The notes under the pieces were generated by a model, which saw only the letters and a program-made list of their open reading frames with translations, was not told the origin of the DNA and did no database searches. A stretch of 25,865 nucleotides of DNA from a virus: positions 1 through 25,865 of the IMG/VR virus record IMGVR_UViG_3300027985_000264; one strand, given 5' to 3'. Positions within the stretch are counted from its first letter, which is position 1; the number at the start of each line of letters is the position of its first letter. Positions 399 through 7,342 of the stretch are shown here, one piece after another. Position numbers and translations under genes: made by a program.

Positions 399-638
399 AT
401 GACCCGGGGTACTAGTAACTTTTTTCGCCCCACCGCCCACATCGGGTGGATCTCGGCGCTTCTGATCGCGATCGCAGCCCAGCTGATCGGGATGTATGAC
501 CGGCTGGGCAACATCGAAGCTGCGCGCGCAGCTCGTAGCTCTGTGAGCGACGAGCGGTATACGTTGATGGAACACCGAATTGACCGTCTTCAGGACGAGC
601 TTGACCGTCAGAGGGAAAAACCGTGTCTGAAGAACTAG
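399..638 (+). CDS. Small one-TM membrane protein, candidate holin or antiholin
   Basis: This 79-residue protein has one clear hydrophobic segment at about residues 16-33 (WISALLIAIAAQLIGMY) after a short polar N-terminus. A charged, probably coiled-coil C-terminus (about 45-75) is rich in Glu, Arg and Asp. Its size, single membrane segment and position directly ahead of the lysozyme-like gene, endolysin and spanins fit a small holin, pinholin or antiholin. The endolysin has no N-terminal signal sequence, so a holin or similar export route is expected nearby. The ribosome site is weak (GAGAT about 11 bases upstream), which may mean low expression. The gene overlaps the next one by 16 bases. 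No sequence family is recognised, so the role rests on context and topology. Confidence 0.6.
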   Translation: MTRGTSNFFRPTAHIGWISALLIAIAAQLIGMYDRLGNIEAARAARSSVSDERYTLMEHRIDRLQDELDRQREKPCLKN

Positions 639-1102
639 ATGCCGTGTACGACAACGAGGAGGCGGTCATTCTCCACGCCCTCGCCGACCTCGTTCGCCGC
701 TACCCCTTCTCGAACATGCCGACGACCGTCGCCGTGCGTATGCTCGGTGACTACGAACGGATGCTCCAGCAAGGCGGAATGACCCGCGAAGAGGCGGAAA
801 GCCTCGCTTTGAACGACCTGCGCAAGATCGCACTGAAACTGCGCACGAAGCTCCTGAACTACGCTCATATCGGCCCAGTACGCAGCTCCGTCCTGCTCCA
901 CGCCGCCCTTTTTCTGGGCTACGAGCGGGTCGACACCATGCGGGACTTGTTCGACGCCCTGAAAAAAGAGGATTATGAGCGCGCGCAGAACGAACTGCTC
1001 CTGTCTGCGTGGCCATCCTTGGTGGGGGACAAGCATCACGATAAGCTGCGCGTGCTCGATCTGGCCCGGCAGCTGCGCACCGGTGAGGTAATTCAGGCAT
1101 GA
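623..1102 (+). CDS. Lysozyme-like protein apparently lacking the catalytic lobe
   Basis: This 159-residue protein uses a GTG start at 623, chosen because GAGGGA (611-616) lies six bases upstream. By eye, residues 53-156 follow the C-terminal lobe of T4-type lysozyme (GH24). MTREEAESL matches the ITKDEAEKL segment, followed by a helix with VRSSVLLHAALFLG (86-99). DALKKEDYERAQNELLLSAW (111-130) matches the helix ending in SRW, and RTGE (152-155) matches the terminal RTG motif. The N-terminal catalytic Glu, the Asp and the Thr-x-Gly-x-Gly-His motif are absent; residues 1-50 are a different helical stretch. It sits directly before the real endolysin (ATGA overlap). It may regulate, chaperone or bind with the endolysin, but no function is proven. 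The fold assignment comes from manual alignment only. Confidence 0.6.
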   Translation: MSEELDAVYDNEEAVILHALADLVRRYPFSNMPTTVAVRMLGDYERMLQQGGMTREEAESLALNDLRKIALKLRTKLLNYAHIGPVRSSVLLHAALFLGYERVDTMRDLFDALKKEDYERAQNELLLSAWPSLVGDKHHDKLRVLDLARQLRTGEVIQA

Positions 1103-2678: not shown

Positions 2679-3050
2679 ATGAAAAAGCCTTTGCAGCTGA
2701 CGATTTCGCTCTATCAGGGTCAGACGTTCAACGACGTGCTGGCCCTGTCGGACGACGTTTCTGGGCTTCCGGTCGATCTGACCGGCTATACGGCCCGCAT
2801 GCAGGCGCGGTTCGACATCACGGACACCACTCCGGTGTTCACGTGGTCGACGGCTACCGGCGAGATCGTCATCGACGGGCCGAACGGCACGATCACGTTC
2901 GCGGTCACGCCCACAGCCACCGCGGCGCTTCCGACGAACAACGACATCACGGTACTGGTCTACGACCTCGTACTTTCCTCGGGCGCCGGCTACGTCGAGC
3001 GCACGGTGCAGGGCGCGGTAGTTATCTACCCCGGAGTGACCCGTGGGTGA
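2679..3050 (+). CDS. BppU-N-terminal-like small structural protein
   Basis: This 123-residue protein contains the pattern DLTGYTARMQ (about 29-38), a GEIVIDGPNGTITFAV hairpin region, TVLVYDLVL and a C-terminal VVIYPGVTRG. Small phage proteins with this order (LTGYT.RMQ, G.I, YDL, VTR) are widespread and resemble the N-terminal domain of baseplate protein BppU, an immunoglobulin-like or beta-sandwich fold used to dock receptor-binding or fibre parts. It is the first of five small beta-rich genes before the terminase and overlaps the collagen-like gene by eight bases. An attachment or base role for a fibre or head appendage is inferred; the domain match is from memory of the motif, not a search. 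Confidence 0.65.
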   Translation: MKKPLQLTISLYQGQTFNDVLALSDDVSGLPVDLTGYTARMQARFDITDTTPVFTWSTATGEIVIDGPNGTITFAVTPTATAALPTNNDITVLVYDLVLSSGAGYVERTVQGAVVIYPGVTRG

Positions 3051-3549
3051 GGTCATCAAAGTCATCCAGCAGATCCCGTACACCGTTACGGTCGTACAGC
3101 GCCAGTCCGTACTGGTGCCGGATCACCGCACGGTCTCGCTGGAAGTGCCCGGTCTTCAGGGTCCGCAGGGCATCCCCGGGCCGCCCGGCAGCTCTGGCGC
3201 CGCGGCCACGGTGCAGCTACCGATCGGCGTGGTGATCACCGGACTCAAGATCGTTCGCAGCGTGCTCGGCGTGATCTACCCCGTCGACACGAGCCTGCCG
3301 GATCATGCGGAGGACGTCATCGGCCTCGCGCTCCAGTCCGTGACCGTCGTGGGGAACGACGTCACCGTCCAAACCGCCGGCCCGGTCACCGACTCGAGCT
3401 GGAACTGGTCGTCCGGCACCATCTGGTGCGGTCCGGACGGTACCCTCACGCAGTCTCCGTCGGCCACTGGCTGGTTGATGGAAGTCGGCCGTGTCGTAAA
3501 CTCCACCACCATCCAGCTCGACATCGAGCCACCTATCTACCGAGGCTGA
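3043..3549 (+). CDS. Collagen-like fibre or appendage protein
   Basis: This 168-residue protein has an N-terminal beta segment, a short collagen-type Gly-X-Y run (GLQGPQGIPGPPGSSG, about 37-52), and a C-terminal beta domain ending VGRVVNSTTIQLDIEPPIYR. Short Gly-X-Y stretches are common in phage fibres, where they trimerise the shaft. The C-terminal pattern recurs in the next gene (VGSATSPTQIETTITQPITR), suggesting related domains. The start overlaps the previous gene by eight bases. It is probably a virion fibre or head-fibre component working with its neighbours. The exact site on the particle cannot be told from sequence. Confidence 0.7.
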   Translation: MGEVIKVIQQIPYTVTVVQRQSVLVPDHRTVSLEVPGLQGPQGIPGPPGSSGAAATVQLPIGVVITGLKIVRSVLGVIYPVDTSLPDHAEDVIGLALQSVTVVGNDVTVQTAGPVTDSSWNWSSGTIWCGPDGTLTQSPSATGWLMEVGRVVNSTTIQLDIEPPIYRG

Positions 3550-5506: not shown

Positions 5507-7342
5507 ATGAGCGACTTTCAGGTTCTCAAGCCACGGATTTACTGCCATGGATGCGGGGTCGAGCAGTCGATCACCCGCTTTCGTGTGCTGTCCGAGGCCC
5601 CGCTGACCTACGTCGACTTCTGCATGGACTGCGAGAAGGTCAAGGGCACCAAGACGCTGTACACCAGCAAGCAGACGGCCGGCTACACCACCAAGCGCGC
5701 CGCGGACTTCATTTTGAACGGCCATGACGCGCAGGCCGAGAAAATCGAGAAGAAAGCGGTGTCAATGGCCGAGGAACAGCGCCGCGAGCTGGCTCGCCGC
5801 GAGCTGTCGCGCCGCTACCTGCTGTACTACACGGTCCAGTTCAACCCGACGTACCTCGCCGGTTGGGTGCACAAGGATATCGCGCGTCGGCTCGAGCAGT
5901 TCGTCCGCGACGTTGAGGCGAAGAAGTCGCCGCGTCTGATGATCTTCATGCCGCCACGCCACGGAAAGAGCACGCTGGCGTCGCAGGAGTTGCCGAGCTG
6001 GGTGCTCGGCGGTCATCCAACGTGGGAAATCATCTCGGCGTCCTATGCCGTGAGCCTGCCGCTTGGCTTCTCACGAAAGATTAAGGACCGGCTGGAAGAC
6101 CCGTCCTACAGCGCCATTTTTCCAGAGGCTCAGCTGCGCCCTGACGCGAAAGGCGTTGAGGAATGGCTCACCACGAAGGGCGGCCGCTACCGCGCGGCTG
6201 GCGTGGAGGGCGGTATTACCGGTACCGGTGCCGACATCCTGATTATCGACGACCCAATCAAGGACTATCAGGAAGCCCAGTCCGAAACAGTGCGCGAGAA
6301 CGCGTACAACTGGTTCACCACCACGGCGCGCTCCCGCTTGGCGCCGGGCGGCGGCGTGCTGATCATTCAGACCCGCTGGCACGACGCGGATCTGTCCGGC
6401 CGGCTGCTGACGGACCGCCAGTCGCTGATCGACATGGGCGTGGATCAGGAGGAAATCGACGATTGGCAGGTTGTTTCGTACCCTGCCATCGCGGAGCACG
6501 ACGAGTACCTTTTCCCCGACAAGACGATCCAGATCGCGCCGGCCGAAGTACCCGAGAACGCTACCAAGCTGCGCTCGGCGGGCGACGCGCTGCACCCGGA
6601 GCGCTACACGGCAAAGGCGCTGCGCACCATGCGCAATACCATGCCGCCGGTGCAGTGGAACGCCCTATACCAGCAGAATCCGGTCCCCGATACCGGTGAA
6701 TTCTTCAACCGCGACATGTTCCGGCCGTACGTCAATCTGCCCGGAATGCTCGACGAGTACGCTTTCTTCCTCGCCTGCGACCTTGCAATCGGCGAGAAGC
6801 AGACGAATGACTGGACGGTCGCGGTGGTCGGCGCGCTCAACAACGACGGCGATCTGTACCTGATGGATTTCCTGCGCGGCCGCATGGGCACGTACCAGAT
6901 CATCGACGCCCTGCTGACCATGGCGCAGAAATACGAGCACCTTCAGGTCATGGGCCTCGAGTATGGCCAGATCTACAAGACCATGGCGCCGCTGCTTAAG
7001 GACGCCATGCAGCACCGAAAAGTGACGTTTGCGCTGACCGAAGACTTGAAGCCGGTGACGGACAAGCTCATGCGCGCGCGCCCGTTGCAGCAGAAAATGC
7101 AGATGGGGAAGGTCTATTTCCCCGCAAATCGTCCGTGGGTATCGCAAATCGAGCAGGAGATGCTCCGGTTCCCAAGCGGCCAACACGATGATATTGTGGA
7201 CGCCATGGCATGGTTGGCCCGCATGGCGTTGACCATTACGCCGCCGCAGCCACCGAAAATGATCACGGGGCGCCGCGTCGAGAGCTGGAAGAAGCAGCTG
7301 AACGTGCTGCGCGGTGACGGCAAATCCTTTATGACGGCGTGA
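5507..7342 (+). CDS. terL: Terminase large subunit with an N-terminal zinc-finger-like extension
   Basis: This 611-residue packaging motor has an ATPase domain with Walker A MPPRHGKST (148-156, Lys154), Walker B ILIIDD (244-249) and the coupling-type TRWHDADLSGRL. The RNase H-like nuclease domain has Asp425 in FLACDLAIG and acidic HDDIVDAMAW near 560-568. The core resembles TerL proteins of P22- and N4-like phages. Residues 1-85 are an extension with two cysteine pairs, CHGC (13-16) and CMDC (39-42), spaced like a zinc-binding ribbon. A Lys/Glu-rich helix joins it to the core. Such an extension is not part of a standard TerL, and an internal Met at residue 87 would give a core-only protein. 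Reading frame is continuous throughout. It follows TerS by two bases. Confidence 0.95.
   Translation: MSDFQVLKPRIYCHGCGVEQSITRFRVLSEAPLTYVDFCMDCEKVKGTKTLYTSKQTAGYTTKRAADFILNGHDAQAEKIEKKAVSMAEEQRRELARRELSRRYLLYYTVQFNPTYLAGWVHKDIARRLEQFVRDVEAKKSPRLMIFMPPRHGKSTLASQELPSWVLGGHPTWEIISASYAVSLPLGFSRKIKDRLEDPSYSAIFPEAQLRPDAKGVEEWLTTKGGRYRAAGVEGGITGTGADILIIDDPIKDYQEAQSETVRENAYNWFTTTARSRLAPGGGVLIIQTRWHDADLSGRLLTDRQSLIDMGVDQEEIDDWQVVSYPAIAEHDEYLFPDKTIQIAPAEVPENATKLRSAGDALHPERYTAKALRTMRNTMPPVQWNALYQQNPVPDTGEFFNRDMFRPYVNLPGMLDEYAFFLACDLAIGEKQTNDWTVAVVGALNNDGDLYLMDFLRGRMGTYQIIDALLTMAQKYEHLQVMGLEYGQIYKTMAPLLKDAMQHRKVTFALTEDLKPVTDKLMRARPLQQKMQMGKVYFPANRPWVSQIEQEMLRFPSGQHDDIVDAMAWLARMALTITPPQPPKMITGRRVESWKKQLNVLRGDGKSFMTA

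Follow-up and report, generated by a model that had tools for sequence, protein, structure and literature searches.

Few proteins have been studied as much as T4 lysozyme, whose N-lobe-deleted form serves as a laboratory crystallisation aid. That engineered minimal T4 lysozyme, mT4L, consists of helix A and the C-lobe (design in PMC4379943; PDB 5i14, "truncated and mutated T4 lysozyme"). Gp1 of mycobacteriophage Ms6, a lysis-cassette protein, acts as a chaperone that binds and stabilises the endolysin of its cassette (PMC6116114), and Spackle (gp61.3), encoded by phage T4, binds and inhibits a T4-type lysozyme domain (PMC7650644). Gp1 is linked to Sec-dependent export in mycobacteria, and Spackle is secreted to the periplasm, with gp5 as its target. 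We know of no relation of Gp1 to lysozyme, and to our knowledge Spackle is not derived from one. SpmX of the Caulobacterales is reportedly a phage lysin that was co-opted and detoxified (Randich 2019, cited in PMC11476376). It serves as a bacterial localisation factor. In a literature search, no report was found of a non-catalytic lysozyme-like protein adjoining an endolysin.

The window analysed here, a 25,865-base stretch of viral DNA, opens with a plus-strand lysis cluster encoding a one-TM protein, a C-lobe-only relative of lysozyme (termed the pseudolysozyme), a GH24 endolysin, an Rz and a nested Rz1; downstream lie the terminase gene (5507-7342) and then portal and capsid genes. The first protein (399-638, 79 aa) was called holin-like in the preliminary description. 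A single predicted TM helix at residues 15 to 33 (hydropathy 1.88), with a charged helix after it, agrees with that name, but the PHROG matches were weak, that to "hol-like chemotaxis" being only marginal (0.0041), and together they point to a holin less firmly than the label implies. The gene runs 16 nt into that of the pseudolysozyme (623-1102, 159 aa), which begins with GTG, 7 nt downstream of a Shine-Dalgarno-like AGAGGG (610-615). The pseudolysozyme stop and the endolysin start share an ATGA (1099-1102), a 4-nt overlap by which the two genes are likely to be translationally coupled. The protein that follows (1099-1938, 279 aa) had been taken for a genuine GH24 endolysin, and this proved correct: it matched PF00959 at 5.2e-33, and the catalytic Glu, Asp and Thr were in place by alignment as E17, D33 and T39. 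Its hydropathy profile indicated a C-terminal hydrophobic hairpin at about residues 205 to 223 and 247 to 265. The Rz-type inner-membrane spanin (1935-2393), with one TM helix near its N-terminus, resembled the Rz of contig L009 (E ~1e-9), and the Rz1-type spanin lipoprotein (2185-2511), nested in another frame of Rz, matched LysC (5.2e-4) and a PHROG Rz-like spanin family (0.0014).

Residues 53 to 156 of the pseudolysozyme had been proposed to correspond to the C-terminal lobe of T4-type lysozyme. When the pseudolysozyme alone was searched against phage genomes with tblastn, it matched T4-type lysozymes of unrelated phages in a single register, mostly over query residues 46 to 155, and the best match was the lysozyme of Pseudoalteromonas phage Pq0 (3e-7). 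Nine of the ten matched records started at query residues 35 to 52 and ended at 137 to 156, the other spanning residues 1 to 155. Seven of the matches were translated and were found to be ordinary T4-type lysozymes of 138 to 161 aa with the pattern E..[DC]..TxGxG. A profile built from these seven scored 57 bits over residues 44 to 155 and reported none of 2,000 shuffles at E<=10, nor the adjoining GH24 endolysin, a result that is partly circular in that the seven were picked by similarity to the pseudolysozyme. Less circular was the use of the orthologue from a related phage as the sole query, which recovered the Pq0 lysozyme at 6e-6; its weak matches down to E=10 were mostly lysozymes, tail lysozymes or unnamed T4-like phage proteins. 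A profile of the two non-catalytic proteins ranked T4 lysozyme first in the PDB and in register (57 to 139 against 55 to 140), though weakly (E 0.014, with FtsY at 0.016). The pseudolysozyme gave no significant Pfam, NCBIfam or single-sequence PDB match, and PF00959 (Phage_lysozyme), which all seven lysozymes match, did not match it or the orthologue at E<=1. Chance similarity was ruled out by the shuffles and the two independent queries. The pseudolysozyme is thus a member of the T4-type lysozyme superfamily by descent, through a homologous C-terminal lobe (residues ~44 to 155). From helix C to the last helix, the lobe was placed by tblastn, profile and model at residues 51 to 155 (773-1087).

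Structure prediction likewise gave the fold of the T4 lysozyme C-lobe. AlphaFold, given 33 aligned true lysozymes as input, which biases the model toward lysozyme, returned a mean pLDDT of 78.4, with 73 to 95 in the C-lobe blocks and 46 to 71 over the first 40 residues. In a Foldseek search, this model matched T4 lysozymes over about 107 aligned columns, at best with E 0.02. The best non-fusion match in VIA-align was 5i14 (Z 13.2, rmsd 2.2, 115/120 residues), a tied rank because full T4 lysozymes lay no more than 1 Z unit away, and a Z near 13 is indecisive for a helical protein. A single-sequence AlphaFold model was unreliable (pLDDT 47.8) and was discarded. In C-lobe sequence and predicted fold, the pseudolysozyme resembles gpE and the other T4-type lysozymes, namely the TIGIGRNL-type endolysins of Pq0, XAJ2, Alexa and HMO-2011, and in phage Alexa the lysozyme gene is likewise placed between those for holin and Rz. 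It differs from them in the absence of the catalytic lobe and of the Glu, Asp and Thr-x-Gly-x-Gly, and in its substituted cleft residues. The deletion of the N-lobe is shared with mT4L, but that protein is a laboratory construct with a linker, whereas the pseudolysozyme has natural helices replacing the lobe and is encoded by a conserved gene. It is a natural "minimal T4 lysozyme", a protein of the C-lobe type encoded within a lysis cassette.

The catalytic Glu, Asp and Thr-x-Gly-x-Gly, which had been noted as absent, were found in neither the pseudolysozyme nor its orthologue. They were present in all 87 sampled relatives (80/80 viral loci and 7/7 phage lysozymes), the viral loci having been retrieved with an alignment headed by the pseudolysozyme and seven of them, with a longer loop, having been missed by the pattern and read by eye. 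Where lysozymes carry T-I-G-x-G-R-N-L, the pseudolysozyme has L41-G-D43-Y-E45-R-M-L, which is predicted to be helical, and the catalytic Thr, Gly and Gly positions are substituted (L41, D43 and E45) in both members. Residues 1 to 50 (623-772) form N-terminal helices in place of the catalytic lobe, modelled at residues 2 to 26 and 39 to 49 with low confidence (block pLDDT 46 to 72) and 38% identical to the orthologue. The model contained no strand of the N-terminal lobe beta sheet, residues 30 to 39 being of low confidence. The pseudolysozyme cannot act as an ordinary lysozyme, and it seems to be kept for something other than catalysis. Residual activity through another constellation of residues, such as an acid of the N-terminal helices at the catalytic Glu column, is very improbable: D22, which is conserved in both members, falls at that column in one alignment, but E13 does so in another, so that the match is unstable, the Thr-x-Gly-x-Gly and the cleft residues are gone, and the model has no beta sheet. 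A frameshift or split-gene origin was rejected, as no lysozyme catalytic motif was found in the holin-like frame or the other frames and the orthologue shares the layout.

The orthologue was reached by widening the endolysin search with the homologue from contig L176. It was found on contigs L269 and L270, which are identical over 7,816 bases and were therefore counted as one virus, so that two independent members are known. Its ORF (2974-3486) encodes a protein about 47 to 49% identical to the pseudolysozyme (48.7%, 4e-42). The gene lies 3' of a homologue of the holin-like gene (31.5% identity, 8e-9), with an equal 16-nt overlap, and 5' of an endolysin gene whose product is 45% identical to that of the window and which it meets at a TGATG, the gene order being unchanged. 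This conservation in a second phage, in the same slot, is new. In both phages, the other two frames of the gene contain several stops each. Between the window and L270, the dN/dS of the pseudolysozyme was 0.35 (bootstrap 95%, 0.19 to 0.54), which equals that of the whole endolysin (0.35) and exceeds that of the endolysin catalytic domain (0.21); as dS was >1, these figures are approximate. The substitution pattern shows that the pseudolysozyme is conserved under purifying selection in the two related phages. The preliminary description, which had portrayed an intact gene kept with a ribosome site and overlapping neighbours, was right, and its observation is stronger than stated because the gene is conserved. 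It is barely credible that the gene is a lysozyme remnant in the course of being lost; the missing catalytic lobe would fit, but the ORF has stayed open in two phages at this level of identity and dN/dS, new residues are conserved, and the start and overlaps are intact.

Exact-peptide searches with the pseudolysozyme alone found no close relatives in viral or genome contigs, and those with the window endolysin alone found none; an alignment of the two pseudolysozyme members returned only L269 and L270 again. Among annotated phages, the five matches opened in a search for C-lobe-only proteins were all of ordinary lysozyme length (429 to 468 nt).

Seventeen residues are common to both non-catalytic proteins and never occur in the 33 sampled lysozymes, 11 of them in the C-lobe. 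Compared with lysozymes, these shared residues include F97 for Asn, L127 for Asp, L133 for Gln, A129 for Arg or Lys and P131 for Ala, at positions that, going by T4 lysozyme, presumably face the old substrate cleft. Position 93 is Asp or Asn in lysozymes and His in both non-catalytic members. Core residues were retained (G52, E57, D65, R87, G99, A121, S128, W130 and R143). A C-lobe that has kept part of the face for substrate binding and is freed at lysis might bind the wall without cutting it and guide or spare the endolysin, and the retained fold, the kept W130 and R143 and the position of the gene within the lysis cassette would suit such a role. However, the polar residues on the cleft side of lysozymes (N97, Q133, R/K129 and D/N93) have given way to F, L, A and H, respectively, in the two members, and this loss makes simple wall binding quite unlikely. 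The hydrophobic replacements could equally be compatible with packing on the new N-terminal helices.

The large terminase subunit (TerL) of the window was 62 to 69% identical to that of G001, the record containing L270, where an intein divides the protein into two pieces, and 67% identical to those of G003 (L009) and G004 (L176); in the window itself, TerL is uninterrupted and has no intein. In the 65-kb record of G003, neither the pseudolysozyme nor the window-type endolysin was found. The endolysin of G003 is of a different type, lambda-R-like by eye. In the same phage (L009, 1157-3300), the capsid is 79% identical to that of the window and the Rz/Rz1 homologues are kept despite the different endolysin module. 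G004 has the window-type endolysin, but its contig begins inside that gene, and coverage starts downstream of the position in question. The pseudolysozyme and the endolysin type were therefore jointly present in two viruses (the window and G001/G002) and jointly absent in one (G003), a pattern that is suggestive, from few cases. No pseudolysozyme-like gene was seen near the endolysins of the other relatives (L272 to L348), and so this endolysin type does not generally depend on one. The relatives also bear on a role on the holin side or in other lysis control, in which the pseudolysozyme, as a soluble regulator or antiholin-like protein, would act on something other than the endolysin. The 16-nt overlap with the holin-like gene in both phages and the conservation of that gene alongside speak for such a role, but the gene is coupled at least as tightly to that of the endolysin, and G003 retains a TM/coiled-coil small gene without a pseudolysozyme; we consider such a role unlikely.

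The reading that we prefer, with a probability of roughly 40%, is that the pseudolysozyme is a cytoplasmic partner of the adjoining endolysin, acting as its chaperone or inhibitor. On overproduction, endolysins that carry C-terminal TM segments can bring about lysis independently of holin and Sec (M4Lys, PMC7143992; Enc34, PMC8943055; LysAP, PMC8879335), and the window endolysin would therefore need restraint. Encoded by a coupled gene just 5' of the endolysin, and having a lysozyme-derived fold without catalytic residues, the pseudolysozyme would be well placed to bind it. A binding, inhibitory or chaperone role would fit both the coupling of the two genes and their joint presence and absence. 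The slot between the holin and Rz genes may formerly have held the ancestor, an ordinary T4-type lysozyme, which would have lost its cutting lobe after a membrane-tailed endolysin had taken over. The pseudolysozyme, now cytoplasmic, would bind newly made endolysin and hold the enzyme in a soluble and/or inactive state up to the holin step; this restraint would set the timing of lysis. The old cleft, more hydrophobic and perhaps lying under the new N-terminal helices, would be an altered working or packing surface. In its fullest form, the proposal that the non-catalytic half of a lysozyme has become an antagonist or chaperone dedicated to binding a membrane-tailed replacement endolysin (a lysozyme-derived "anti-endolysin") is tentative. 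Simple lobe swapping with the adjoining endolysin is not obvious because that enzyme comes from another GH24 branch.

As a proposed endolysin partner, the pseudolysozyme would share with Ms6 Gp1 a non-enzymatic nature, a place in the lysis cassette and service to the endolysin, although the Sec-linked export of Gp1 sets the two apart. By hydropathy, it has neither a signal peptide nor a clear TM helix and, unlike the secreted Spackle, no N-terminal hydrophobic stretch. SpmX is a second lysozyme-family domain in non-lytic reuse, but it keeps the muramidase domain and belongs to another GH24 branch. Recruitment outside lysis, for example in host takeover or virion assembly, with the gene position reflecting descent only, would be in keeping with a fold that is a generic helical scaffold; in both phages, the tight coupling within a lysis cluster of five genes makes this unlikely. 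A truncation similar to that of the laboratory crystallisation aid is found here in a conserved natural gene. If it does bind the endolysin, the pair would show how phages with membrane-tailed endolysins escape premature lysis and would provide a case of an enzyme fragment repurposed as a control protein.

Several further features were observed. A perfect inverted repeat with 17-nt arms and a 15-nt loop (133-181) lies 5' of the lysis cluster and may be a terminator or an operator; L270 showed no counterpart. The lysozymes encoded on L003, L002 and L006 matched phrog_33534, a PHROG family of unknown function (94 aa) with a profile confined to the C-lobe of lysozymes; it might be a further family of C-lobe-only proteins or a collection of fragments. 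Compared with other GH24 endolysins, the window endolysin has a 7-residue insertion after E17-G-L and before D33 (1147-1197), and the endolysins of L270, L272 and L273 have a similar one by eye. In NCBIfam, its N-terminal domain matched the gene-transfer-agent endolysin BgtA (6.7e-31) and SpmX (6.3e-16), both under the model cut-offs. The intein of the G001 terminase (IMGVR_UViG_3300028798_000008; L351, 14107-16746) is in frame, matches Intein_splicing (PF14890, 4.2e-16) and lies between Terminase_6N and 6C.
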